Positions 517-35,901 of a stretch of DNA of 64,000 bases are shown one piece after another. How positions within the stretch are numbered: position 1 is the first letter of the stretch; every line of letters begins with the position of its first letter. The notes beneath the pieces were generated by a model, which ran no database searches, was not told the DNA's origin, and saw nothing but the letters and a program-made list of their open reading frames with translations. Source of the DNA: Oscillospiraceae bacterium (GTDB lineage Bacteria; Bacillota; Clostridia; Oscillospirales; Ruminococcaceae); NCBI GenBank assembly GCA_018110825.1, contig JAGBCL010000059.1, positions 1-64,000 on the forward strand, given 5' to 3'. Made by a program: the position numbers and the translations under genes.

Positions 517-567
517 GAGTTGCCTTGAACAAATTAAGCGTTCAGCTTGACAGTTCTAAACACAATG

Positions 568-596
568 AAGACCACCCTTTAAGGGTGGTCTTTTTT
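568..596 (+). terminator. Rho-independent terminator of flagellin
   Basis: GACCACCCTT pairs with AAGGGTGGTC and is followed by six T residues, about 50 bp after the flagellin stop. Confidence 0.93.
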
Positions 597-612
597 GCAT
601 GTATGCAAATTA

Positions 613-643
613 AAACGGACGGTACATAGTGTATCGTCCGTTT
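613..643 (-). terminator. Terminator downstream of nadE
   Basis: AAACGGACG and CGTCCGTTT form a 9-bp stem just past the nadE stop on the minus strand, followed there by TTTTAATTT. Confidence 0.75.
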
Positions 644-647
644 ACTT

Positions 648-2564
648 TTATTTTTCCAAATCCTCAAGCCATAAGCGAACGCAAGCGTCGGAAGGCATGT
701 TCCAGTCCCCTCTCGGTGACAGGGAAACTGTGCCAACCTTTGGTCCGTCAGGTAAGCAAGAACGCTTGAACTGCTGAGTGAAGAATCGGCGCACGAAAAT
801 TGTGAGCCATTTTTTTATTGTTGCACTGTCGTAAATGCCATCAAAGGTTTTTTCGGCAATGCGGAAAATCTTGCTTGGCGCAAAGCCACAGCGTACCAGG
901 TAGTAAAGGAAGAAATCGTGCAGCTCGTAAGGTCCGACGATATCCTCGGTTTTCTGAGAAATCTCGCCCTCTTTAGGGGGAAGAAGTTCAGGGGAAACAG
1001 GTGTGTCAAGAATGTCACGGAGCACCTCGGAAAGCTTTGTATCCTCGGTGTTGTTGCTCTCAAATGCAACAAGATGACGCACCAGCGTTTTCGGAACAGA
1101 ACCATTTACACCGTACATCGACATATGGTCGCCATTGTAGGTTGCCCAACCGAGAGCAAGCTCGGAAAGGTCACCCGTACCGATAACAAGTCCGTTCATC
1201 ATATTTGCAATGTCCATAAGCACCTGTGTGCGCTCGCGTGCCTGTGAATTTTCGTAGGTTACATCAAGATTGCTTTCGTCCTGTCCAATGTCTGCAAAAT
1301 GCTGACGTACAGCGGCGGCGATGTTGATTTCCTTCAACGTTACACCGTAAGCCTCAGCAAGATAATACGCATTATTTTTGGTACGACTCGTCGTGCCGAA
1401 GCAAGGCATTGTTACAGTAACAATCCCCTTGCGGTCAAGTCCAAGCATATCGAAAGCGTGAACGGTTACGATGAGAGCAAGAGTGCTGTCAAGACCGCCC
1501 GAAAGCCCCACAACAGCCGTCTTGCAGTTAATGTGGCGCAGACGTGTAGCAAGTCCCGTTGCCTGCATTGTGAGGATTTCCTCACAGCGATTGCGGAGTT
1601 CATCCTTGACCTCGGGTACAAACGGATTGAGGGGAAAATGACGCTGTAAATTTAGATATTTCAAATTTAATGAAAATGGGAAAGTATCATATTTCATTTC
1701 AAAATTGCGTTTTCGGGTATCAACAGCAAATGTATTTACCTTTCTTCTTTCTGCGGCAATTCTGAAAAGGTCGATTTCCGTGTAAGTTATGCCTGTTGTA
1801 AACTTCTTGCTTTCGGCAATAACCTTTCCGTTTTCGGCGACAAGGTTATAACCGCTGAAAACAAGGTCACGGGTTGACTCTCCCATACCTGCGTTTGCAC
1901 GGATATATCCGCAGTGAAGTTCGGCAGATTTTACCTCGGCAAGCTTTTTCACAGCACTGCTTCTGCCCACGATTTCAGGTGAAGCGGAAAGGTTGCAGAT
2001 AACGGTTGCACCTTCTGCCGCAAGTTCAGATGCGTTACCATTATCACCAATTTCAACTCCGACAACAAGTTCGTGAAAATCTGTGCATTTAAACAATCTG
2101 TCACCTATATAGACGGTAAAGAAGGGTGCTGTCAATTCTGAATATACATCATCAAATCCACCATTCCATTCAGCAAAATAACGCGCCTCACAAAACTCAC
2201 CATAGTTTAAAACGACCTTTTTAGGAACAATTCCAACGACTTTACCATTTGTTATGACAGCAGCACAGTTGTAAAGCTTATTGTATATTTCAAATGGAAA
2301 ACCGACTATAATAAGAGCATTGCAATCGGCTGTTTCATCTGCGACACGCTTAACAGCTTTTTTTGCCCCGTCAAGCAAAGTTTTTTGCAGGAACAAATCC
2401 CCGCAGGTGCTTCCCGTGATGCAAAGCTCAGGGAATACTATTACAGAAGCGTCATTGCGTGCCGCTTCCTTTGCATACTTAATTATTTCATCGGCATTGT
2501 GGTCGCAGTCGGCAACCTTTATATCGGGTGTTACCGCCGCAACACGGAGAAATCCGTCTTTCAT
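648..2564 (-). CDS. nadE: NAD+ synthetase, glutamine-dependent architecture, nucleophile Cys absent
   Basis: This is a two-domain NAD+ synthetase that amidates nicotinate adenine dinucleotide in the cytosol. Residues 1-270 are a nitrilase-like glutaminase and about 320-638 the ATP-PPase, with the P-loop GLSGGLDSTLA and the conserved tail QFKRSCLPDGPKVGTVSLSP. In the glutaminase, Glu46 (FPEL) and Lys115 (VPKK) of the Glu-Lys-Cys triad are present. The cysteine motif, normally GVEICEDLW, reads GVEIGDNGN, putting Gly173 where the nucleophile belongs. The synthetase half looks intact, so the enzyme may depend on free ammonia (inference). ATG 2564 is preferred over an in-frame TTG nine bases upstream, because GAAAGG abuts that TTG. 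The gene has its own promoter and terminator. Confidence 0.93.
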   Translation of the reverse strand: MKDGFLRVAAVTPDIKVADCDHNADEIIKYAKEAARNDASVIVFPELCITGSTCGDLFLQKTLLDGAKKAVKRVADETADCNALIIVGFPFEIYNKLYNCAAVITNGKVVGIVPKKVVLNYGEFCEARYFAEWNGGFDDVYSELTAPFFTVYIGDRLFKCTDFHELVVGVEIGDNGNASELAAEGATVICNLSASPEIVGRSSAVKKLAEVKSAELHCGYIRANAGMGESTRDLVFSGYNLVAENGKVIAESKKFTTGITYTEIDLFRIAAERRKVNTFAVDTRKRNFEMKYDTFPFSLNLKYLNLQRHFPLNPFVPEVKDELRNRCEEILTMQATGLATRLRHINCKTAVVGLSGGLDSTLALIVTVHAFDMLGLDRKGIVTVTMPCFGTTSRTKNNAYYLAEAYGVTLKEINIAAAVRQHFADIGQDESNLDVTYENSQARERTQVLMDIANMMNGLVIGTGDLSELALGWATYNGDHMSMYGVNGSVPKTLVRHLVAFESNNTEDTKLSEVLRDILDTPVSPELLPPKEGEISQKTEDIVGPYELHDFFLYYLVRCGFAPSKIFRIAEKTFDGIYDSATIKKWLTIFVRRFFTQQFKRSCLPDGPKVGTVSLSPRGDWNMPSDACVRLWLEDLEK

Positions 2565-2596
2565 TTCAATCAACCTTTCGGATAGAGTATACCTAT

Positions 2597-2625
2597 ATTA
2601 TATAGCATTTTTTTCAGATTAGCAA
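2597..2625 (-). promoter_or_regulatory. Sigma-A promoter of nadE
   Basis: On the minus strand TTGCTA, a 17-bp spacer and TATAAT lie about 35 bp before the nadE start. Confidence 0.6.
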
Positions 2626-2654
2626 TATTTATTTTTACAAATGATAATTTATAG

Positions 2655-2683
2655 AAAAACTCCGCAGATTTTTCTGCGGAGTT
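2655..2683 (-). terminator. Terminator of the CNNM/CBS gene
   Basis: The perfect 11-bp stem AACTCCGCAGA/TCTGCGGAGTT runs into a T-run on the minus strand, directly after the upstream gene's stop. Confidence 0.9.
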
Positions 2684-2687
2684 CGAT

Positions 2688-3959
2688 TTATTCTTCATTG
2701 TTCTCCTTGGGCATATCAACCTTGATTCCGACTCTTGAAACGGACTGTTCGTCTGATTCAAGAATTGTTACAGTAAACATACCGCTTGTTTCGGTTGCTC
2801 CCTCCTCGGGAATACGTCCGAACAGTTCCATTACCCAGCCGCCAACGGTGTTGCTGTCTGTTTCAATGAGATTATCGGGAAGTTCAAGTTCCTCAAGCAT
2901 ATCGTTAATGCTTAAATCAGCCTGAACATCATACATATCCTTTGCAATTTCAACAACATTGTCAACTACTTCGTCAGTTTCGTCATAGATTTCACCGACA
3001 AGTTCTTCAATGATGTCCTCCATTGTTACAATACCGCTTGTGCCGCCGTACTGGTCTTTAACAATTGCCATATGGATTTTGGTACGCTGCATTTCGTACA
3101 GCACCTCGGAAATAAGCTTCATTTCCGAAACGTAGAGAGCCTTCTGAATAATGTCTTCAATGCTTATCGGCTTGCTGTCGGAACGGAATTTCAGAGCGAA
3201 AAAGTCCTTTTCGTTGATAAGACCAACAATGTTATCAATTGACTTGTCATAAACGGGAAGTCTTGTGTAGCGGTCACGGATAAAGATTTCCATAATCTCG
3301 TCAGGGTCATCATTACGCTCAACAGCCACAACCTTGACTCTCGGAACAAGTATCTGTTCAATGGTTGTTTCGTCAAACTCAAGAGCAGACTTTACAAGCT
3401 CACTTTCCTGCTCCTCAAGAACACCCTGGTCCTCGATTTCATTGATGATGTATTTCAGTTCATCTTCAGTAAAGTTAGGTGCATCACCTGCTTTGGAAAG
3501 CTTTGCCATAGCCTTTTGGAGTTGAGCAAAAATAGCAGAAATAGGTGTCAGAAGCCACATTATCGCACCGAGAAGTCCGGCAAAAGCAAGTGCACAGCTT
3601 TCAGCGTGCTGTTTTGCAAAGGACTTCGGCATAATCTCACCGAAGATGAGAACAAGAACGGTCATTGAAGCTGTTGAAATAGCCGCAGCGGTTGCTGTAC
3701 CGAACTTTTTTGCGAACAGGCTTGTACAGATGATAGTAGCAAGAGAAGAAGAAAGAATATTTACAATGTTGTTGCCCACGAGAATAGTGGTAAGAGCCTT
3801 GTCGAAGTTTTCGGCAATTTTCAGGGCACGCTCAGCCTTCTTGCTGCCATTTGCAGCCTGATGCTTCAGACGGATTTTGTTTACTGTGGAAAACGCCGTT
3901 TCCATTGATGAAAAGAGTGCGGACATTACGAGGAGACACGCTATCGCTATGTACTTCAC
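2688..3959 (-). CDS. CNNM/CBS-domain membrane protein (HlyC/CorC family)
   Basis: A 423-residue protein with the family's usual order. An N-terminal CNNM (DUF21) region of about four hydrophobic segments spans residues 1-150 and begins with FSSMETAFSTVNKIRLKHQA. A CBS pair follows at about 200-330 (VPRVKVVAVERND, RLPVYD, DQYGGTSGIVTMEDIIEELVGEI), then a CorC/HlyC C-terminal domain at about 345-420. Relatives are implicated in Mg2+/Co2+ homeostasis, and the older hemolysin name is misleading. Translation starts at GTG. It is transcribed alone, with a strong terminator, so the context adds nothing about the transported ion. Confidence 0.92.
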   Translation of the reverse strand: MKYIAIACLLVMSALFSSMETAFSTVNKIRLKHQAANGSKKAERALKIAENFDKALTTILVGNNIVNILSSSLATIICTSLFAKKFGTATAAAISTASMTVLVLIFGEIMPKSFAKQHAESCALAFAGLLGAIMWLLTPISAIFAQLQKAMAKLSKAGDAPNFTEDELKYIINEIEDQGVLEEQESELVKSALEFDETTIEQILVPRVKVVAVERNDDPDEIMEIFIRDRYTRLPVYDKSIDNIVGLINEKDFFALKFRSDSKPISIEDIIQKALYVSEMKLISEVLYEMQRTKIHMAIVKDQYGGTSGIVTMEDIIEELVGEIYDETDEVVDNVVEIAKDMYDVQADLSINDMLEELELPDNLIETDSNTVGGWVMELFGRIPEEGATETSGMFTVTILESDEQSVSRVGIKVDMPKENNEE

Positions 3960-11042: not shown

Positions 11043-11068
11043 TAACACGCTGAAAAGGAATGATGAAA

Positions 11069-12526
11069 ATGCTTGACCAGCACAGAGCGCCGATTTATGA
11101 CGCGCTTTTGAGATACCGTGACGCAAGGGTAGTGCCCTTTGACGTACCGGGACACAAGCACGGAAAGGGTAATCCCGAGCTGACTGAGTTTCTCGGGAAA
11201 ACCTGTCTTTCCGTTGATGTAAATTCTATGAAGCCGCTGGATAATCTCTGCCACCCAACTTCCGTTATCAAGGAAGCTGAGGAGCTTGCGGCAGAGGCAT
11301 TCGGAGCGGCTTACTGCTTTTTTATGGTGGGGGGAACAACCTCCTCGGTGCAGTCAATGGTGCTCTCCGTCTGTAAGGCTGGGGAGAAAATCATTATGCC
11401 CCGAAACGTGCACAGAAGCGCAATCAACGCGCTTATTTTAAGTGGTGCAATTCCCGTTTACGTCAACCCCGGTGTAAACGAAAAGCTGGGTATCCCTTTG
11501 GGAATGAGCGTCAAGGACGTGGAAAAGGCTATCCTTGAAAACCCCGACGCAAAGGCGGTTTTCGTGAACAACCCCACCTACTACGGAATTTGCTCAGATC
11601 TGAAGAGAATTACCGACCTTGCCCATTCTCACGGAATGGCTGTTATTGTTGACGAGGCTCACGGCACACATCTTTACTTCGGGGAAAATCTCCCGATTTC
11701 AGCTATGGCGGCAGGTGCCGATATGGCGGCGGTTTCAATGCACAAGTCGGGCGGCTCGCTTACACAGAGCAGCTTTCTGCTTATCGGCAAGGGTGCTGAA
11801 AAATTCGGTGTAACCGAGGGCAGAGTCCGTGCCGTAATAAATCTTACACAGACAACAAGCGGTTCATATCTGCTTATGTCATCGCTGGATATTTCCAGAC
11901 GCAACCTTGCTCTGCACGGCAAGGAAATCGTGGAGAAGGCTGTGAACAACGCCGCTTATGCAAGAGTGGAAATCTCCAAAATCGGCGGCTACTACGCATT
12001 TGCCGACGAGCTTATCAACGGCGATGATATATACGATTTTGACCGCACCAAGCTTTCGGTGCATACACGTGATATAGGTCTTGCGGGTATCGAGGTTTAC
12101 GACTATCTCCGTGACAACTACGATATCCAGATTGAATTCGGCGATATAGGAAATATTCTTGCATACATTTCCGCAGGTGATATGTGGAAGGATATCGAAA
12201 GACTGGTTTCCGCACTTGCCGAGATAAAGCGCCGTTTTGCCAAGGATAAGACGGGTATGCTTGACCACGAATATATCAACCCGCAGGTTGTGCTTTCACC
12301 TCAGGCGGCTTTCTACGGTGAGCAGGTTTCTATGCCGATTGAAAAAAGCGCAGGGAAAATCAGCGGTGAGTTTGTAATGTGCTATCCGCCTGGTATTCCG
12401 ATACTTGCCCCAGGGGAGAGGATTACGGAGGAAATTCTTGCGTATATCCGATACTCTAAGGAGCGTGGCTGTATGATGACGGGTACGGAGGATATGGAGA
12501 TAGAAAACATCAAGGTTATTGTCTGA
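11069..12526 (+). CDS. speA: Arginine decarboxylase (Orn/Lys/Arg decarboxylase fold I)
   Basis: A PLP enzyme of the B. subtilis SpeA type that converts arginine to agmatine. Landmarks are VPFDVPGHKHGKG near the N-terminus, MVGGTTSSVQSM for phosphate binding, VIVDEAHGTHLYF with the PLP-contacting Asp and His, and the Schiff-base lysine in SMHKSGGS (about residue 225). It is full length for the family, about 486 residues. Three in-frame ATGs cluster at the start; the third sits 9 bases after AAAAGGA. The presence of speB downstream favours arginine over lysine or ornithine as substrate. Confidence 0.93.
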   Translation: MLDQHRAPIYDALLRYRDARVVPFDVPGHKHGKGNPELTEFLGKTCLSVDVNSMKPLDNLCHPTSVIKEAEELAAEAFGAAYCFFMVGGTTSSVQSMVLSVCKAGEKIIMPRNVHRSAINALILSGAIPVYVNPGVNEKLGIPLGMSVKDVEKAILENPDAKAVFVNNPTYYGICSDLKRITDLAHSHGMAVIVDEAHGTHLYFGENLPISAMAAGADMAAVSMHKSGGSLTQSSFLLIGKGAEKFGVTEGRVRAVINLTQTTSGSYLLMSSLDISRRNLALHGKEIVEKAVNNAAYARVEISKIGGYYAFADELINGDDIYDFDRTKLSVHTRDIGLAGIEVYDYLRDNYDIQIEFGDIGNILAYISAGDMWKDIERLVSALAEIKRRFAKDKTGMLDHEYINPQVVLSPQAAFYGEQVSMPIEKSAGKISGEFVMCYPPGIPILAPGERITEEILAYIRYSKERGCMMTGTEDMEIENIKVIV

Positions 12527-12540
12527 CGGGAGGAATTGCT

Positions 12541-12825
12541 GTGAAAAATTATTATGACAGAAATTATAGGGTTGCAAAAAGCCAGTCCTATCTGTATTCG
12601 GGACTTGTTATGTCTGCGCTGGTGCTTATAATGATAGTGGTTTCGGTGCTGTCGATTGTAAACGGCTCCGATATGGTCCTTATCGTTACAGGCTTTGCGG
12701 CAGCTGTATTTTGGCTGATTGCATCGGTGATATGTCTTCGTGTTTATTACAAGGATAATCACGTTGAGATAAAGGAAAAGGCAAGGGTTATTGCAGAAAC
12801 GGTTGAAAATGCTGTGAGAAAGTAA
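12541..12825 (+). CDS. Small two-TM membrane protein
   Basis: A 94-residue protein with two membrane segments (about 20-43 and 48-70) and charged ends, the C-terminal one being an amphipathic helix (HVEIKEKARVIAETVENAVRK). It starts at GTG with GGGAGG nearby, 14 bases after speA and 22 before speE, so it belongs to the operon. The family is not recognised. It is too small to be a transporter alone. Confidence 0.82.
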   Translation: MKNYYDRNYRVAKSQSYLYSGLVMSALVLIMIVVSVLSIVNGSDMVLIVTGFAAAVFWLIASVICLRVYYKDNHVEIKEKARVIAETVENAVRK

Positions 12826-12847
12826 TTTTGAGAAAGGATTTTAAGCT

Positions 12848-13696
12848 ATGGATTTATGGTTCAGTGAGCCGCATACACCCGACGTGAAGATGTCAATCCG
12901 TGTTGACAGACAGCTTCACAGCGAGCAGAGCGAGTTTCAGAGAATTGATATTTTTGAAAGCAAGGAGTTCGGGCGTTTTCTCACTCTTGACGGACTTATG
13001 ATGCTCACCGAAAAGGACGAGTTCATATATCACGAAATGATTACTCACGTTGCTATGGCTTCTAATCCCGAAATAAGAAATGTTCTCGTTATCGGCGCAG
13101 GCGACGGAGGAACTGTCCGTGAGCTTGCAAGGTACGACACGATTGAGCATATAGATATGGTTGAAATTGACAAGCGTGTTGTGGAGGTCAGCAAGGAGTT
13201 CTTACAGCAGACAGCTTGCAGTCTTGATGACCAGAGAGTCAATATTGTGTATGATGACGGTCTGCGTTTTGTGCGCAGGAAGGAAAACTGCTACGATTTG
13301 ATTATTGTGGACAGCACTGACCCGTTTGGTCCGGGTGAGGGACTGTTCACAAGTGAGTTCTACGGAAACTGCTTTAATGCGTTGACCGAAAAGGGTATCC
13401 TTGTAAATCAGCACGAAAGTCCCTATTACGCTGACGATGCAAAGGCTATGCAGAGGGCACACAAGCGTATCAAGGAATTTTTTGACGTGTGCAGGGTTTA
13501 TCAGGCACACATTCCTACTTATCCGTCGGGACACTGGCTTTTCGGTTTCGCTTCAAAGGCAATTGACCCGCTGACTGCGGATATTGAGAAGTGGAACAGC
13601 CTTGGTCTGAAAACACGTTACTACAACACCGATTTACACAGGGGTTGTTTTGCGATACCAAACTACGTAAAGGAACTTTTGGAAAACGCAAATTAA
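12848..13696 (+). CDS. speE: Spermidine synthase
   Basis: Aminopropyl transferase joining putrescine and decarboxylated AdoMet. The sequence has the family's landmarks: a short N-terminal beta domain, DEFIYHEMITHV for putrescine binding, VLVIGAGDGGTVRE (glycine loop), MVEIDKRVVEVSKEF, and YDLIIVDSTDPFGPGEGLF with the catalytic Asp. At 282 residues it has the usual length. With speD, speA and speB in the same operon, every step from arginine to spermidine is encoded within 5 kb. Confidence 0.96.
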   Translation: MDLWFSEPHTPDVKMSIRVDRQLHSEQSEFQRIDIFESKEFGRFLTLDGLMMLTEKDEFIYHEMITHVAMASNPEIRNVLVIGAGDGGTVRELARYDTIEHIDMVEIDKRVVEVSKEFLQQTACSLDDQRVNIVYDDGLRFVRRKENCYDLIIVDSTDPFGPGEGLFTSEFYGNCFNALTEKGILVNQHESPYYADDAKAMQRAHKRIKEFFDVCRVYQAHIPTYPSGHWLFGFASKAIDPLTADIEKWNSLGLKTRYYNTDLHRGCFAIPNYVKELLENAN

Positions 13697-13717
13697 TTTA
13701 TACAAAGAGGAACAACT

Positions 13718-14566
13718 ATGCAAATTGAAAGAAATGCTTTTATCGGCTGTGACTGCGAATACGAGGCGGCGAAAACGGTTATTTTCGGTGCACCATTCGA
13801 CAGCACAACCTCATACCGTCCCGGCACCCGCTTCGGAAGCAAGGCTATCCGCAGCGAAAGCTTCGGCATAGAAACCTACTCGCCATATCAGGACAAGGAT
13901 TTGCTTGACTACAGCATTTTTGACGCTGGCGACCCTGAACTTTGCATCGGTAACGTTGATACTGCCCTTGCACAGATTGAGGAGCTTACGTCGGAAATTC
14001 TCGCCGACGGCAAGCGTCCGTTTATGCTTGGCGGCGAGCACTCGGTAACACTGGGTGCGGTTACGGCGGTTTATAACAAATACAAGGATTTGTATATCAT
14101 ACAGTTTGACGCGCACGCTGATTTGCGTGACGATTACCTTGGGGTGAAGAAATCCCACGCTTGTGTAATGCGTCGCTGTCATGAAATGGTTGGCGACGGT
14201 CACATCTACCAGTTTGGCATAAGAAGCGGCGAGCGTAAGGAATTTAAGTTTGCGGCTGAACATACGAAGATGAATAAATTTAACCTTGACGGCATCGAAA
14301 AGGCTGTTGAGGAATTAAAGGGCAAAAACGTGTACCTGACAATTGATATGGACGTTATGGACCCGTCAATTTTCCCTGGCACGGGTACTCCCGAAGCAGG
14401 GGGCGTGCAGTTTATGGAGTTGCTTGAAGCGGTGCTGAAGCTGAAGGGGCTGAATATCGTGGGCGCTGACATTAACGAGCTGTCACCACAGTACGACCCA
14501 AGCGGTGTGTCAACAGCGGTTGCCTGCAAGCTTCTGCGTGAACTGCTGTTGATGTTGGAAGATTAA
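13718..14566 (+). CDS. speB: Agmatinase (ureohydrolase)
   Basis: Binuclear Mn enzyme hydrolysing agmatine to putrescine and urea. The metal motifs are GGEHSVTLG, QFDAHADLRDDY and TIDMDVMDPSIFPGTGTPE, all intact with their His and Asp ligands. The length of 282 residues is normal. It follows speE by 21 bases. Arginase or another ureohydrolase could share these motifs, but the position after arginine decarboxylase and spermidine synthase makes agmatinase the sensible reading. Confidence 0.95.
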   Translation: MQIERNAFIGCDCEYEAAKTVIFGAPFDSTTSYRPGTRFGSKAIRSESFGIETYSPYQDKDLLDYSIFDAGDPELCIGNVDTALAQIEELTSEILADGKRPFMLGGEHSVTLGAVTAVYNKYKDLYIIQFDAHADLRDDYLGVKKSHACVMRRCHEMVGDGHIYQFGIRSGERKEFKFAAEHTKMNKFNLDGIEKAVEELKGKNVYLTIDMDVMDPSIFPGTGTPEAGGVQFMELLEAVLKLKGLNIVGADINELSPQYDPSGVSTAVACKLLRELLLMLED

Positions 14567-21900: not shown

Positions 21901-21929
21901 AAAAAAGCCGCCCCTGTTTTCGGGGCGGC
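21901..21929 (-). terminator. Terminator of the hydrogenase-like chemoreceptor gene
   Basis: GCCGCCCC/GGGGCGGC stem, followed on the minus strand by TTTTTT. Confidence 0.93.
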
Positions 21930-21935
21930 AAAATA

Positions 21936-23804
21936 TTACTGTTCAACAAGGTCAGCGGCAATTGCGTTAAGTTCTTCAATAACAGCGGTAATATCAGCAA
22001 TACTGCTGCTGATAAGCTGTGAACTGTTATTGAGAATTTCAACAGCCTTGTCAGTATTGTCAACATTGTGTTTTGTTTCTGTAACCTCACCGATAATTGC
22101 ATCTGAGGAGGACTTGATTTTTGTAACGCTTTCGAGAATTGTATTTGTGTGTGCTTCAGCCTCAGTAAGAGTTTCGGCGGACTTGATTGCAAGAGTTCTT
22201 ACTTCATCTGCAACAACTGCAAAGCCCTTACCGTGCTGACCTGCTCTGGCTGCTTCAATAGAAGCGTTAATAGCAAGAATATTGGTCTGACCTGCAATTG
22301 CAGAAATCTTTTCAAGGATTTTTGTGTATTCCTCAATGCCTGTGCTGATGCTGTCAACAGCTGTTGCAATTCCGTCTGCACGGTTGGAAACACTGGAAAT
22401 GTCTCTGCTGATAACGCCCATATCCTTCTTGATACTTTCGTTCTGAGCTGTGTTTTCAGCTGTGTTTTCAGCAATCGGCTGGATTTTGCCTGTAAGAATT
22501 TCAAGGGAACTGTGAATCTGAGCAACAGCATCCTGAAGACTTGCGTGACGTTTTTCAAGATTTTCCTTTAGTTCGGCAGTTTTCTTCTTTTCATACATAA
22601 TGCAGTTAGCAGGAGTGTTGTTGCCTGCGTAGATTGTCATAGCCATATGCTTACAACTCTTGTAGCCGCATGCATGGCAGTCGATATGGCGGTCAGCATC
22701 AGTATATTTTTCCATACTGTTGAATATGCTGTCAAGCTGAGCCATGGTAGGAATAGCTTCAGTGCTTCTGTTTGTGTAACTGCGGAGGAAGTCCTCAAGT
22801 TTGAGACTCTTGAACAGTTTTGTATGGAAACGCTCATTCTTATTACGCTTGCTTGCGAAGCCCTTTACCTTCATCATGATGTCATAGGAATTGAACATAT
22901 CAAACTTTTCTGCTGCGCCTGCACCGGAGTTGCAGCCGAACTCGCAAGAAAGCACGTCATAAACTGTAGGAACCTTTGAAGGGTCAGTTTCGAGATACGT
23001 TTCAAAGTCCTCGTAAACCTTCTGGACACCTTCGGATGTTGCAACAGAAAGGTCAGGTGCAAACACTTTAAGACATTCCTTCAGACCGCCAGGGATAGGG
23101 TAGAATGCACCGTCAAAGCCTCTTGCCTTGGTGAATTCGAACGGGCTGTGGCCTGTACCGAGAGGAATGTTGTTCTTTTCAATGTATTCGGAAAGACGGC
23201 GGAATGTAACATTGCCGCTTACAATACCGGTATTGCGGAACTCATCGCCCTTTGCGATACAAGGAGTAAGACCGATAATTATATCATTGTTGCCGAGGTA
23301 CTTGCGGACGTAAATAGCTGTACACATAAGTGGGGACTGAACAGGGGAAAGCTTAGGGAGAAGTTCAGGCTTATGTTTTTCGGCATAGTTTACGATTGCA
23401 GCACAAGGCTGGGAAATGATTTTTGCACCAGGATTCTTCTTCACGTATTCAAGGTGGAGATATGTACAGATATCGGCACCGAAAGATGCATCATAAATTT
23501 CATGAACGCCCATATCCTTAAGCCACTGGAGGACGTGACGCCACTTGCCGTCCATAGCGGTTTTGATTGCAGGGGCAACAACGAGAGAAACCTTAGTTGT
23601 CTTGATAAGTTCAAGCAGCTGTTCAAGGTCATCAGTGTAATAACGTGCGCCGTGCTGACAATTCTTTACGCACTCACCGCATCGGATACATTGTTCATTA
23701 TTGACATGAACAACGTTGCCGTCATAACGGTTAGCATTTGGCACGGGACAGACTCTTATACAGGCGTTACAGCCGATACATTTATTGGCGATTACGTTAA
23801 TCAT
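21936..23804 (-). CDS. Soluble [FeFe]-hydrogenase-like / methyl-accepting chemotaxis fusion protein
   Basis: A 622-residue cytosolic fusion with no membrane segment. Residues 1-55 are two [4Fe-4S] ferredoxin motifs (Cys9-12-15-19 and Cys39-42-45-49). Residues 70-340 are an [FeFe]-hydrogenase large-subunit-like domain, with H-cluster Cys candidates 134 (SQPCAAI), 182 (LTPCIAK), 287 and 291 (SCEFGCNSG). The proton-transfer Cys of catalytic enzymes (TSCCP) is missing. A further Fe-S motif, [10 protein letters not shown], comes next. From about 430 to the end is a chemoreceptor signalling hairpin with the tip [19 protein letters not shown]. It probably reports hydrogen or redox state to CheA through CheW (inference). 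A sigma-28-like promoter lies upstream. Confidence 0.93.
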
Positions 23805-23875: not shown

Positions 23876-23905
23876 ATTATACCATATTTATTATATATAT
23901 GTCAA
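23876..23905 (-). promoter_or_regulatory. Sigma-A promoter upstream of the chemoreceptor gene
   Basis: On the minus strand TTGACA, an 18-bp spacer and TATAAT form a near-consensus promoter in tandem with the sigma-28-like site. Confidence 0.7.
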
Positions 23906-23970: not shown

Positions 23971-24007
23971 AAAACAGCAGGTACACATAGCTAACTGTGT
24001 ACCTGCT
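23971..24007 (-). terminator. Terminator of the cotH cluster
   Basis: AGCAGGTACACA/TGTGTACCTGCT is a perfect 12-bp stem followed by GTTTT on the minus strand. Confidence 0.92.
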
Positions 24008-24012
24008 ATAGA

Positions 24013-26019
24013 TTAATTAAGAACTTTTTCACAGAATTCAATCATAGGTTGAATGTGATTGCTGCGTCCATCAATAAAATCAAGGATACATTGTGCGCTT
24101 GCATAGCCGCCGCCAAGTGCATCTTCAGTGTCGCCGGTGCCAGGGTAACGGTTAAAGAATTGTTCGTAAAGCGGGGAGTAGATGTCCACAAATTCCATCA
24201 GTCTTGCAGTTGCCGCTTCCTTTTCAAAGTAACCATCGGAAAGACCTGTCAGGCGGTCATAAAATTCTGTGCGGAAGCCTTCGTTTGTCATAAGATATGC
24301 AAAGCAGAGAACAGCAGGATTGTTTGTATCCATATCAAGCAGACCATTAGGCTTGTAGTTATCCTCCTTGATAGTGTTTGTACGCACGTCACCGCCGCCG
24401 CTTACACCGCCGAATTCCATATCATAGAACATAAAGCGCCATCTGCCGTCAGCGTAAGGATTGCTTTCGTCAACATTTATCGTTTTCCACATAGACCAGT
24501 TTTTGCCCGGCCAGTCCCACTTATTGTTAATCCAGCATTGCACCGCAAAATAATCCATCACGGAGTAAGGGTCAACAAGCTGTACGAATTCGTCATAGTC
24601 CTCCTGAGATTTCAGGTCAGAGTGATTTCCAAAGAAATCGTACAATTCCTTGTAATAGTAGCTTTCCTTTTCACCTGCAGGAATTTCACCTTCGTCAAGT
24701 GCATAACCTCTGCCGTATTTTTCAGCATCGCCCTTGTAAACAACAACGTCGTCCTTGTTTACACCATGTACGTCCTCAAAGAAGTCATCGCTGTAGTCCT
24801 CTTCAAGAACGTAAAGTCCCCAGTATTCGCCATTGAGATAAACCACGCATGGACGGGACTGCTTTGTTTCGCAGGCACTGTCGTGAAGAAGCGACTGCCA
24901 ATAGGTATCATTGAACTTGGATGTAAAGGCACAGTTTCCTCCTGCACGGAGAACAAGATGCTTGAATTTGTCCATAACCTCACCGCTGTCATTGAGGTAA
25001 TCCTCACCGAAAACAGTGTATTCAAAGTTATTGTTTCCGTATTCTTTTCTTGCATAAAGGCGGAAGCCCTTCTGATAGTCGGAGCGGGAATAGTTGCCCT
25101 GAATACGAATACCGCAGTTCTGGTTAAGAACGGTTTCCGCACCTTCAGCAGTAACTTCAAGCATTGTAATTGAAGCGTTTCTTTCCCAGTCCCTGCCTCT
25201 TTGCTTGTAGTTTGCGTCAAGGGAGCGTGCGTCCTCAGTATCTTTGAGTCGGTTGCCCTCAGCAAGATGTTGTTCCAGTGCCTTGTCAAAAATATCACCC
25301 TTGACGTAAATGCCATTTTCGCTGTCAAAAAGGTCATCATAATTCACGTTTATGCTGATTACCGCAAGTGGAGTTCCTGCCGCGTCACAGCTTTCAGCAA
25401 TGCCCTGAATATGTTCTTCAGGTGTGCCGATAAAATACGCTGCAGAATTGTCTGTTCCGAAAGTTCCGTCCGATTTTTTTACAGCAGCACGTATTACAGT
25501 GCACTTGTCCACATCCTCATTTGCCGGCAATTCCATATCCCATTCGAACCCGTCACGGCTGCCGTTTACCTTGTTGTAATTGCCCGAAAACAGCACAGGG
25601 TCAACAGCTGAAACTACGTTTTCACGTCCTTCTGCGGAAACAATTTTCACAGGCTCGGTGTAAGCAATTGCAGTTTCACTTGTGGCAGGATTACTTCCGT
25701 CAAGAGTGTAAAAAATCTCGCCTTCGTCAGAGGAAGTTATTGTAAGGCCAAATTCCTCAGCATAAAATCCGCTTTCCGCAGAAAAAGAGATTGTTGTTGG
25801 GTCGGGTATAACTACATCTTCTTTTTTTTCGTCAGCAGCCGGTGAAGTTGTTTCAGAAGATTCTGTCTGAATATTATCAGCCGATTCAGCTGTTACTGAG
25901 GTTACTGCAGCAGTTGTATCAGTCGGAGCAGTATCCTCAGCAGGTTGTTCCGTGCAAGCGGTCAGAAGCACTGAAGCTGAAATTAGGAGTGCTGTAATTG
26001 AAGCGATTTTTCTTTTCAT
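24013..26019 (-). CDS. CotH kinase family lipoprotein with chitobiase-like N-terminal domain
   Basis: A 668-residue lipoprotein: signal peptide with LTAC lipobox, a Thr/Ser/Glu-rich linker (about 25-70), and a chitobiase/HEX-C-like beta domain (SAESGFYAEEFGLTITSSDEGEIFYTLDGSNP). The atypical CotH kinase domain follows (about 210-660), with GIRIQGNYSRSDYQKGFRLYARKEYG, LRAGGNCAFTSKFND, YLNGEYWGLYVLEE and the metal-binding DMEFGG. CotH proteins phosphorylate proteins in spore coats, and relatives occur on surfaces and cellulosomes of ruminococci. It is the last gene of a three-gene unit after DUF4956 and VTC proteins. Confidence 0.92.
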   Translation of the reverse strand: MKRKIASITALLISASVLLTACTEQPAEDTAPTDTTAAVTSVTAESADNIQTESSETTSPAADEKKEDVVIPDPTTISFSAESGFYAEEFGLTITSSDEGEIFYTLDGSNPATSETAIAYTEPVKIVSAEGRENVVSAVDPVLFSGNYNKVNGSRDGFEWDMELPANEDVDKCTVIRAAVKKSDGTFGTDNSAAYFIGTPEEHIQGIAESCDAAGTPLAVISINVNYDDLFDSENGIYVKGDIFDKALEQHLAEGNRLKDTEDARSLDANYKQRGRDWERNASITMLEVTAEGAETVLNQNCGIRIQGNYSRSDYQKGFRLYARKEYGNNNFEYTVFGEDYLNDSGEVMDKFKHLVLRAGGNCAFTSKFNDTYWQSLLHDSACETKQSRPCVVYLNGEYWGLYVLEEDYSDDFFEDVHGVNKDDVVVYKGDAEKYGRGYALDEGEIPAGEKESYYYKELYDFFGNHSDLKSQEDYDEFVQLVDPYSVMDYFAVQCWINNKWDWPGKNWSMWKTINVDESNPYADGRWRFMFYDMEFGGVSGGGDVRTNTIKEDNYKPNGLLDMDTNNPAVLCFAYLMTNEGFRTEFYDRLTGLSDGYFEKEAATARLMEFVDIYSPLYEQFFNRYPGTGDTEDALGGGYASAQCILDFIDGRSNHIQPMIEFCEKVLN

Positions 26020-26033
26020 AGCAAGCCCCCTGA

Positions 26034-26702
26034 TTAAAGTTCTTCTTTACTGTCAGGAACAATTCCGCAGCTTACGGTAAGATTACCGTTGCGGCAGCGG
26101 ATTTTATCCAGCATTTCCTTTTCGGATTTTCCTGCCTTGCAGGTTATTATGTAAACAAGCTCATACATTGTACCCATACGGATTGTACGTACATAGTCAA
26201 GTCGGCAGGAGTTGGTATACTCCTTGAAAATTTCATCGAATGTACCGCTGTAGTCCATATCCTCAGGTATAACAATTTTCAGCTGACGCATTGCTGCACG
26301 GTTTGGAGGAACAAGCTTTTCTGCAATAACGATTACAACAGCAATAATTGCTGTGAATATAAGTGCATACCACATGAATCCCATGCCGCATACAAGTCCT
26401 GAAGCCATTGCCAGGAACAGCATACAGATGTCACGGGAGCTGCCTGGGATTGAACGGAAACGTACAAGGCTGAATGCACCTGCTGCAGCAACACCTGCAC
26501 CGATATTTCCGTTAACCATCATAATAATCACCTGAACAATTGCCGGAACGATAAGTGTTGAAACAATCATAAATTTTGAAGGGCGGTTTGTTCCGAAGCG
26601 ATACACAACGGCAACTATTATTCCGCAGATTAAAGAGATAATCAATCCAATACCTGCGTTTGTGAGGGAAGCAAGCATATTTACCTGTGATAGAATGTTC
26701 AT
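26034..26702 (-). CDS. DUF4956 membrane protein
   Basis: A 222-residue protein with about four membrane segments in the first 140 residues, including VIIMMVNGNIGAGVAAAGAF and FRSIPGSSRDICMLFLAMASG. A cytosolic ACT-like C-terminal part follows (VRTIRMGTMYELVYIITCKAG). The GAGVAAAGAFSLVRFRS segment is the DUF4956 signature as I know it. The start overlaps the VTC gene's end by 4 bases and cotH follows 14 bases later. The trio VTC-DUF4956-CotH recurs in bacteria, so a joint role is likely though undefined. Confidence 0.87.
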   Translation of the reverse strand: MNILSQVNMLASLTNAGIGLIISLICGIIVAVVYRFGTNRPSKFMIVSTLIVPAIVQVIIMMVNGNIGAGVAAAGAFSLVRFRSIPGSSRDICMLFLAMASGLVCGMGFMWYALIFTAIIAVVIVIAEKLVPPNRAAMRQLKIVIPEDMDYSGTFDEIFKEYTNSCRLDYVRTIRMGTMYELVYIITCKAGKSEKEMLDKIRCRNGNLTVSCGIVPDSKEEL

Positions 26703-27442
26703 ATGGATAATTCCTTTCTGGTTGAAGTTTTTTTGTTTTGTACATATGAAGTATAAATTTTTCCGTACTTTGAAAAGGATACGGGATATATTTTCAAACG
26801 TGAAAGAATTTCGGTCAGTTCAAGCGGAATAGCCCGTCCGGACTTTATTTCCATAAGCCTGTAGTTTTCAGTGCCCGTATCAAGAAGTTCCGTATCGTCA
26901 TCTGAAGTAAGGGTTATATTGTCCCAACGGCTTCTGATGTTTTTATCAAATGTAATACGTACTTCGGGGTGTTCGGTAAGAAAATACGCCTCACGGTCAT
27001 AAGCAAGATAGATTTTCGGTTCAGGATTGTATTTCTTCATGAGATAGTCAATTTCCTCAAAAATCTGATTCGGAACGAAGCCTTCAAGACTCGCAGGACG
27101 AATTCCTTTATGCACATAGTCAGCTGCTTCGCCGAATGGAATAACTATTCTTCTTTTGTAAACTACACCCTTTGCCTTTTTCTTGATTTCAAAAAATATT
27201 TTTGTGTCATTGTCAGCATTTCCGTAGCTTCTTATACGCAATTTTTCCTTATATGCAGGACGGTCAAGGGAATGTTCTATAAAGTAAAAATCATCCGTGT
27301 CGAGATACAGATTGCAGATTTTGTATTCGCCGTATTTGTCCCGTGAAAGCAATTCACTGGTTTCACTGAGAAAAGCATCCGCTTGTTGGGCAGTAAGCAG
27401 GAATTTGGTTTCCCGGCGGTTAAAGCTTTGTATGTAACTCAT
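26699..27442 (-). CDS. VTC-domain polyphosphate polymerase-like protein
   Basis: A 247-residue CYTH/VTC tunnel-fold protein. The start is FNRRETKFLLTAQQADAF. Lys/Arg-rich strands (KLRIRSYGN, FFEIKKKAKGVVYKRRIVIPF) line the tunnel, an acidic strand set (IYLAYDREAYF, RITFDKNIRSR) follows, and LMEIKSG closes it. Family members make polyphosphate from ATP at membranes. It is the first gene of the unit, and the membrane protein downstream could anchor it or export product. Its own phosphate substrate specificity is inferred from the family. Confidence 0.88.
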   Translation of the reverse strand: MSYIQSFNRRETKFLLTAQQADAFLSETSELLSRDKYGEYKICNLYLDTDDFYFIEHSLDRPAYKEKLRIRSYGNADNDTKIFFEIKKKAKGVVYKRRIVIPFGEAADYVHKGIRPASLEGFVPNQIFEEIDYLMKKYNPEPKIYLAYDREAYFLTEHPEVRITFDKNIRSRWDNITLTSDDDTELLDTGTENYRLMEIKSGRAIPLELTEILSRLKIYPVSFSKYGKIYTSYVQNKKTSTRKELSI

Positions 27443-35046: not shown

Positions 35047-35901
35047 ATGGCTGATTTATATAATAATGAAAATATCAACGTTGCCGAGGATTTGCCCTGG
35101 CTTATATTTACTCTTGATGACAAGGCTTATGCGGTAAACAGCAAGTTCGTCAACGGAATTGAAATGAAACCTAAGGTTGTTACTCCTATTCCTGAGGCAC
35201 CTGAAGCATATTGCGGTGTTGTTCAGCGTCGTGGCGAGGTTTACCCGCTTCTTGATATGAGAAAGGTTTTCCATTTTGATACACTTGATGAGGAAGCGGC
35301 AGCTTTTCGTGCAATGATGGAACAGCGTAAGGCTGACCACGTTAAATGGGTTGAAACTCTTGAACACTGTGCAGAAACAGGTGAAGCATTTACTCTTGCA
35401 ACCGACAGCCACAAGTGTGCACTTGGACTTTGGTATGACGAGTTTACAAAAAATCATCCGTCTGCCGCTGTGCTGCTGAAAAAGATTGAGGAACCGCACA
35501 GAAAGCTCCACGGTGCAGCACATGATGTTCTTGCTGCGGCTGACAAGGGTGATAAGGAGACTGTTGCAAAGCTTATAAAGCGTGTACGCACAGATTATAT
35601 GCCTAAGGTTATTGCGGCAATTGATGATGCTGAAAATGCATACAAGACAACCTTCAAGGAAACGGTTGTTGTACTTACAGAGGAAGACCAGATGCTTGGT
35701 CTGTTGGTTGACAAGGTGCTTGCGGTTGATAAGATTTCCTTCATCAACGGCGGTGGAAGCATGAATCTTCTTCTCCAGTCAAAGTATTTCTGCAACGTTG
35801 CACGCTGTGCAAGATTTGATATGGAAATACTTGTTATCGACGAGCGTGAGTTGTTGACTCTTTCTGATGTTGATACAAGCGGAGTTGAACTTCCACAATA
35901 A
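35047..35901 (+). CDS. CheW-like coupling protein with embedded CZB zinc-binding domain
   Basis: A 284-residue cytosolic protein. Residues 15-75 are the first half of a CheW fold (LIFTLDDKAYAVNSKFV, GVVQRRGEVYPLLDMRKVF). A CZB domain is inserted at about 95-160, and the CheW fold resumes at about 205-275 (DQMLGLLVDKVLAV). CZB ligands are visible: His98, Cys124 in CALGLWYDEF, and His151 and His155 in PHRKLHGAAH. CZB domains bind zinc with a reactive Cys that responds to oxidants such as HOCl in studied chemoreceptors. The protein could couple receptors to CheA in a zinc- or redox-dependent way (inference). ATG 35047 follows CAGGGGGA; monocistronic. Confidence 0.92.
   Translation: MADLYNNENINVAEDLPWLIFTLDDKAYAVNSKFVNGIEMKPKVVTPIPEAPEAYCGVVQRRGEVYPLLDMRKVFHFDTLDEEAAAFRAMMEQRKADHVKWVETLEHCAETGEAFTLATDSHKCALGLWYDEFTKNHPSAAVLLKKIEEPHRKLHGAAHDVLAAADKGDKETVAKLIKRVRTDYMPKVIAAIDDAENAYKTTFKETVVVLTEEDQMLGLLVDKVLAVDKISFINGGGSMNLLLQSKYFCNVARCARFDMEILVIDERELLTLSDVDTSGVELPQ

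Follow-up and report, generated by a model that had tools for sequence, protein, structure and literature searches.

The window analysed here, a stretch of 64,000 nucleotides from an Oscillospiraceae bacterium (assembly GCA_018110825.1, contig JAGBCL010000059.1, positions 1 to 64,000), encodes a 622-residue protein in which two ferredoxin motifs, a hydrogenase H-domain and a further Fe-S motif are joined to a chemoreceptor signalling domain. This fusion is probably a cytoplasmic chemoreceptor with a retired [FeFe]-hydrogenase as its input module. Its sequence, predicted fold and genome content fit a cytosolic [FeFe]-hydrogenase-derived sensor wired to a chemotaxis output, through which hydrogen, or the redox state of the cell itself, may guide swimming. 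A sequence-only reading of the gene had proposed such a sensor; the wiring is consistent with all three lines of evidence, while a bound 2Fe subcluster, for which the support is genomic, hydrogen as the ligand and taxis as the response are what we infer from them. More tentatively, and short of calling it probable, we propose a dedicated H2-taxis receptor: a hydrogenase would have traded its proton relay for proline and gained a CheA-binding hairpin, an Fe-S cluster would feed the signalling helix, and the H-cluster pathway (HydE, HydG and HydF) would have been retained for the sensor alone in at least one lineage. If this is true, a costly H-cluster cofactor is made only for steering in at least one lineage.

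Architecture of the fusion and its putative H-cluster pocket

The gene and its parts, in the order of the protein, are as follows.

21936..23804, minus strand: gene for the soluble 622-residue fusion, Fer4-Fer4-H-domain-FeS-methyl-accepting chemotaxis protein (MCP) (open reading frame and Pfam)
23658..23780, minus strand: two CxxCxxCxxxC ferredoxin motifs, Cys 9, 12, 15, 19 and Cys 39, 42, 45, 49 (Pfam Fer4)
22923..23594, minus strand: H-domain, residues 71-294 (Pfam Fe_hyd_lg_C)
22602..22679, minus strand: C-terminal Fe-S motif C376-x2-C379-x4-C384-x16-C401 (Pfam PF04060, residues 374-402)
21942..22601, minus strand: chemoreceptor signalling domain, residues 402-621, two long helices (MCPsignal at 493-617; predicted helices 402-520 and 522-621)
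22215..22313, minus strand: CheA/CheW-binding hairpin tip region, residues 498-530 (from sequence)

The domain order first read from the letters agrees with Pfam, in which Fe_hyd_lg_C (82.4 bits against a cut-off of 22.1) and MCPsignal (97.4 against 34.6) are both matched. The protein had also been read as lacking a membrane segment, and a Kyte-Doolittle scan finds no 19-residue segment with a mean of at least 1.6. In the predicted model, compared by VIA-align, the input domain has a hydrogenase fold. C134, C182, C287 and C291, taken earlier to fit H-cluster ligands, align in register with C300, C355, C499 and C503 of CpI, and the proton-relay cysteine is absent as reported, with P133 at the position of CpI C299. 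T180 stands at M353, L285 at M497 and K185 at K358, and the position of CpI E279 is not conserved. The fusion scores below the cut-offs of the NCBIfam models for catalytic hydrogenases of group B1 (115.1 bits against 450) and group A (81.5 against 405.95).

On the output side, the model places the start of the signalling helix at residue 402, directly after C401, the last cysteine of the Fe-S motif; neither HAMP nor PAS was found between this motif and the helix. The signalling domain is short, with 108 residues after the tip core compared with 134-136 in seven of the ten other receptors of the genome that were measured and 146-182 in the other three (L017 and L018, of 13 receptors, are unmatched by the tip regular expression and lie outside these counts; L and G numbers are our handles for loci and genomes). 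The strict methylation motif, [ASTG]2-x2-[EQ]2-x2-[ASTG]2, occurs in eight of those ten receptors and in none of 34 homologues, including the window protein.

Conservation among close orthologues

Scanning the genome collection turned up 36 loci with close orthologues, 33 of them full-length and three partial; the window protein and the full-length orthologues make an alignment of 34 rows with 56-93% identity. All 19 cysteines are invariant across these rows: eight of the ferredoxin motifs, the four putative H-cluster ligands, four of the C-terminal Fe-S motif, and C113, C161 and C244. C161, which aligns by position with I327 of CpI, is retained in nearly all distant relatives (Gln in L072) and not in the aligned catalytic types. 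K185 and E188 are retained in 34 of 34 close homologues. At the tip, Q506, T507, L510, A511, N513, A514, E517 and A518 are invariant, and a regular expression places the start of the QTNILAINA core at residue 505-507 for 33 of the 34 homologues (L052 is unmatched). No relative was found on viral contigs, so a viral origin is not supported. Hydrogen gradients are of importance in the guts of ruminants. Of the 36 orthologue records, 11 bear ruminant names (roe deer, goat, sheep and water deer; colon, cecum or rectum), and two come from 'Lapin' samples. The host bacterium itself is probably an inhabitant of an animal gut.

Maturases and chemotaxis proteins in the host genome and in G124

The host genome (96% complete) has five Fe_hyd_lg_C genes, including the fusion. 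Two of them, L001 and L002, score above the NCBIfam cut-offs of the group A/A6 and group B1 models, respectively, and are labelled accordingly, whereas group C and D labels of host and related genes come from motifs and context. The group A/A6-type HydA gene (L001) adjoins a gene for an NADH-binding HydB-type subunit, a Group-D-like gene (L004) lies approximately 5.6 kb from it, and an HfsB-like gene (L003) is followed by a SpoIIE-type phosphatase gene. A sensor of the proposed kind would be difficult to reconcile with genomes lacking hydEFG and cheA, as the sequence-only reading had pointed out. In the host, the HydE, HydG and HydF genes form one gene run, and CheA, CheW, CheR, CheB, CheC and CheD were found together with three flagellin matches and 13 receptor matches, the fusion included; the single CheA match is clustered with cheW, cheR and cheB, less than 10 kb from flagellar genes.

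A place beside cheA or hydrogenase genes, suggested earlier as a check, was seen in none of the 34 loci. Among 27 stretches with more distant relatives, maturase genes were seen only in L074 of genome G124. This genome is 98% complete with 1% contamination, and the composition of the L074 contig agrees with the rest of the bin. The L074 fusion comprises Fer4, Fe_hyd_lg_C, FeS and MCPsignal by Pfam and is encoded on the same strand as a TM1266-type regulator gene, hydE, hydG and hydF, all over the NCBIfam cut-offs. Because L074 is the sole Fe_hyd_lg_C match in G124, at both E 1e-12 and E 1e-8, and shares this gene run, the maturases appear to serve the chemoreceptor. The case is limited by the 2% of the genome that is missing and by the catalytic types present in two species of the genus whose genomes are less complete (71% and 79%). 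Two further species of the genus, 99-100% complete, gave no Fe_hyd_lg_C match, and one of these, G002, which is among the 148 family genomes considered below, has no HydG. A relative with maturases and fusion in one gene run and no other [FeFe]-hydrogenase match constitutes a natural experiment.

Sensor family and its outputs

The sensor module is present in 22 of 148 genomes of the GTDB family at E <= 4e-102, the next best genome-level match being 4e-33. In 12 of these 22 the output is of the receptor type, one of them short (L091); MCPsignal is matched by Pfam in eight, and the other four were assigned by profile coverage and tip motif. The remaining outputs, assigned by eye for unscanned relatives, are a coiled coil without the tip (L077-L083, L087, L090, L092 and L093), HD_5 (L088), PAS-kinase-receiver-hemerythrin (L089), PAS (L086) or no further domain (L084 and L085). 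Most members share an L1 motif, S/T-Q-P-C. In the tree, a 100% branch sets the sensor family apart from the rows of group A, group B, the HfsB-like type and the HydS-D-like type. Since the HD_5 member is placed among receptor-type members, output domains have, judged by sequence, been swapped within the family.

CheA was found in 12 of 12 receptor-type genomes, in three of ten genomes with other outputs only and in 52 of 148 overall (Fisher p 1.4e-6 and 7e-4, uncorrected for relatedness). HydG was found in 26 of 36 genomes with close orthologues, eight of 12 receptor-type genomes, five of the ten others and 63 of 148 overall; the 36-genome and 22-genome sets overlap by at least three genomes (G077, G118 and G126, with identical HydG places). 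HydE and HydF were sought in the host genome and at L074.

Some relatives deserve mention in their own right. L089 (2236-6276, minus strand) is a single 1347-residue protein that unites the sensor module with a PAS domain, a histidine kinase, a receiver and a hemerythrin domain. L088 (4529-6547, minus strand) fuses it to an HD_5 (HD-GYP-like) domain and might convert hydrogen or redox state into a second-messenger signal; a decarboxylase gene and an arginase-family gene lie near it (518-3707, minus strand), in a genome other than the host. The hairpin-less relatives L077-L081 adjoin a similar-looking coiled-coil gene whose product, by eye, starts M-ESRFIKTVTFGGYDK; it has a DivIVA match below the cut-off in L080 and none in L078, and may be a candidate partner of the hairpin-less sensors.

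Proposed mechanism and alternatives

We propose that HydE, HydF and HydG, all present in the host, would load a full H-cluster on C134, C182, C287 and C291. The redox state of the Fe-S chain would then be set by H2 or CO at the H-cluster, or by ferredoxin electrons arriving through the two N-terminal clusters; turnover would be slow because proline replaces the C299 relay and the E279 position is not conserved. Since the C376-C401 cluster adjoins the continuous helix from residue 402, and neither HAMP nor PAS was found to separate them, a redox change at the base of this helix might alter its packing directly. The hairpin, intact in sequence, would bind CheW and CheA and thereby bias flagellar rotation. 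Because there is no strict methylation motif, adaptation may come from neighbouring receptors or be absent.

Several observations weigh against a chemoreceptor that senses hydrogen. HydG is without a match in 10 of the 36 close-orthologue genomes (three of the 36 loci hold partial copies), in nine of the 22 module genomes and in four of the 12 receptor-type genomes. Its excess in module genomes falls short of significance (13 of 22, compared with 50 of 126 among the rest, p 0.11; eight of 12 for the receptor type, p 0.13), and so we do not treat the presence of HydG alongside the module as proof that the H-cluster is loaded. In G122 (93% complete), which carries two sensor-like homologues, neither a catalytic type nor HydG was found. 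The association of the tip with CheA yields only three phylogenetically independent contrasts and thus cannot reach significance phylogenetically. A few relatives lack Lys at the K358 position (L069 and L083 have Arg, L090 has Thr and L092 has Met), and the L074 fusion shares only 34% identity with the window protein. Neither the window gene nor any of the 33 close orthologues is flanked by cheA, cheW, a hydrogenase gene or a maturase gene (388 open reading frames of 34 loci compared with the Hyd and Che proteins of the host genome; many flanks end at contig ends), and the 34 upstream regions scored have no clear motility-type (SigD/FliA) promoter.

The alternative that survives best is a pure Fe-S redox sensor, holding only [4Fe-4S] clusters and informing CheA of the redox state of ferredoxin or the cytosol, or of damage by oxygen, with no hydrogen sensing. 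Hydrogenase-like Nar1/NARF proteins hold only such clusters, and the conserved cysteines of the fusion, taken alone, would suit [4Fe-4S] clusters too. The C299, M353 and M497 positions are all altered, and the HydG gaps just described, including that of G122 with no catalytic-type homologue, also favour this explanation. It accords poorly, however, with the hydE-hydG-hydF gene run in a genome whose sole [FeFe]-hydrogenase match is the fusion and with the full retention of K185 and E188. Moreover, a missing HydG is no proof of a missing H-cluster, because G113, G136, G090 and G035 (98-100% complete) have the sensor module and a catalytic-type HydA with no HydG match at E 1e-90. On balance, we consider a pure Fe-S sensor rather unlikely.

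Far less weight is given to a sensor with a non-tactic output, in which the hairpin would recruit CheA/CheW-like partners for another purpose or form a scaffold. The short signalling domain, the strict methylation motif in 0 of 34, a promoter-like site of the vegetative type and the HD-type or tip-less outputs of related modules would all agree with it, but the tip is conserved and the only CheA match in the genome is clustered with cheW, cheR and cheB near flagellar genes, which makes this idea improbable. That the fusion is a working catalytic hydrogenase with a mere receptor-like tail is scarcely credible: it has the hydrogenase fold and the H-cluster ligands, but the proton relay is absent, M353 and M497 are altered, and the genome has separate enzymes over the cut-offs that the fusion falls far below.

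Relation to known systems

Helicobacter TlpD and Aer are examples of soluble energy-taxis chemoreceptors that report the internal energy or redox state to CheA. The proposed hydrogenase-derived chemoreceptor differs from both in its input, a hydrogenase/Fe-S domain rather than FAD-PAS or CZB (flavin adenine dinucleotide, FAD).

The novelty of direct wiring to chemotaxis, implied earlier, is a weaker claim than was written: Table 1 of HydDB (2016) lists a [FeFe] Group C2 as 'Chemotactic (putative)', with its role given as undetermined (PMC5037454). The likeness lies in the link between a putative sensor of the [FeFe]-hydrogenase kind and methyl-accepting chemotaxis proteins; the comparison is by description, in a text that leaves unstated, where it treats the group, whether hydrogenase and receptor form one polypeptide (PMC5037454). 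The fusion is probably a candidate member of Group C2. An acetogen survey, as described, dropped its own Group C2 sequences after a validation in which [FeFe] types needed a known H-cluster motif (PMC9431212), and a ruminant study is described as assigning C2 genes to Clostridia and finding them more abundant in the rumen of one breed (PMC10811737).

The Group D protein TamHydS (M2e), as described, shares with the fusion two ferredoxin motifs, the H-domain, Cx2Cx4Cx16C and the lack of PAS, as well as a hydroxyl residue at M353 (T180 in the fusion) and Leu at M497 (L285); it differs in having Ala instead of Pro at C299, and the output of the fusion is an MCP (PMC8163306). The Group-D-like L004 of the same genome belongs to a separate clade, with 23% identity in the H region, and the fusion also stands apart from L123, L135 and L138, the Group D label of these four being by motif and context with no named reference in the tree. 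Group C TmHydS/HfsB, in the descriptions available, has the same sensor architecture of ferredoxin motifs, H-domain, Fe-S motif and output; the fusion has an MCP in place of PAS and other pocket residues (PMC10055695, PMC8163306). HfsB-like L003 likewise forms a separate clade (24% identity in the H region), and a 100% branch parts the fusion from L003, L130 and L136, which are labelled by motifs and the following SpoIIE-phosphatase gene with no named reference. No PAS was matched in the fusion by Pfam at E 0.001, a weak test against Group C because L003 also gives no PAS match at this level.

Among the matches listed in the open-access literature, we found no account of the direct fusion, of its pocket with Pro, of swapped outputs or of the gene run with maturases. 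One paper calls a sensory role for [FeFe]-hydrogenases putative, with direct physiological evidence wanting (PMC8924675). A hydrogenase and a chemoreceptor in one polypeptide offer a direct readout, in CheA kinase activity and swimming, and hydrogen sensing by such proteins thereby becomes testable.

Putative transcription signals and neighbouring genes

Three putative signals flank the gene.

23876..23905, minus strand: promoter-like site TTGACA-18-TATAAT, vegetative type, 12/12 (consensus match only)
23974..24009, minus strand: terminator-like hairpin between the fusion and the upstream CotH gene (pattern match only)
21907..21929, minus strand: terminator-like hairpin immediately past the fusion stop codon (pattern match only)

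The promoter-like site and the hairpins on both sides, as pattern matches, suggest a single-gene transcription unit. A SigD/FliA motility promoter was scored against the consensus and rejected: the best score, nine of 11 positions in four of the 34 upstream regions, is reached by 8-16% of shuffles, and the other 30 regions score 7-8.

The flanks of the close orthologues are little alike, the largest neighbour family occurring in five of 34 loci. Flank comparison gave a receptor-like gene near the fusion orthologue at two loci (L036 and L043). At L032, L035 and L044 a receiver domain matched CheB, and at L037 a stretch of 52 residues matched a HydS-like protein. In the window, the fusion is preceded upstream by a set of CotH, DUF4956 and VTC genes (24013-27442, minus strand), which is retained in L023 and L024. 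Polyamine-type genes for an Orn/Lys/Arg decarboxylase, a spermidine synthase and an arginase/agmatinase family protein lie at 11060-14566 on the plus strand. Approximately 11 kb from the fusion (35047-35901, plus strand), a gene encodes a CheW protein whose domain is split after residue 82 by an inserted CZB zinc-binding domain (98-162); this protein is a possible candidate for a redox- or zinc-sensing coupling protein.
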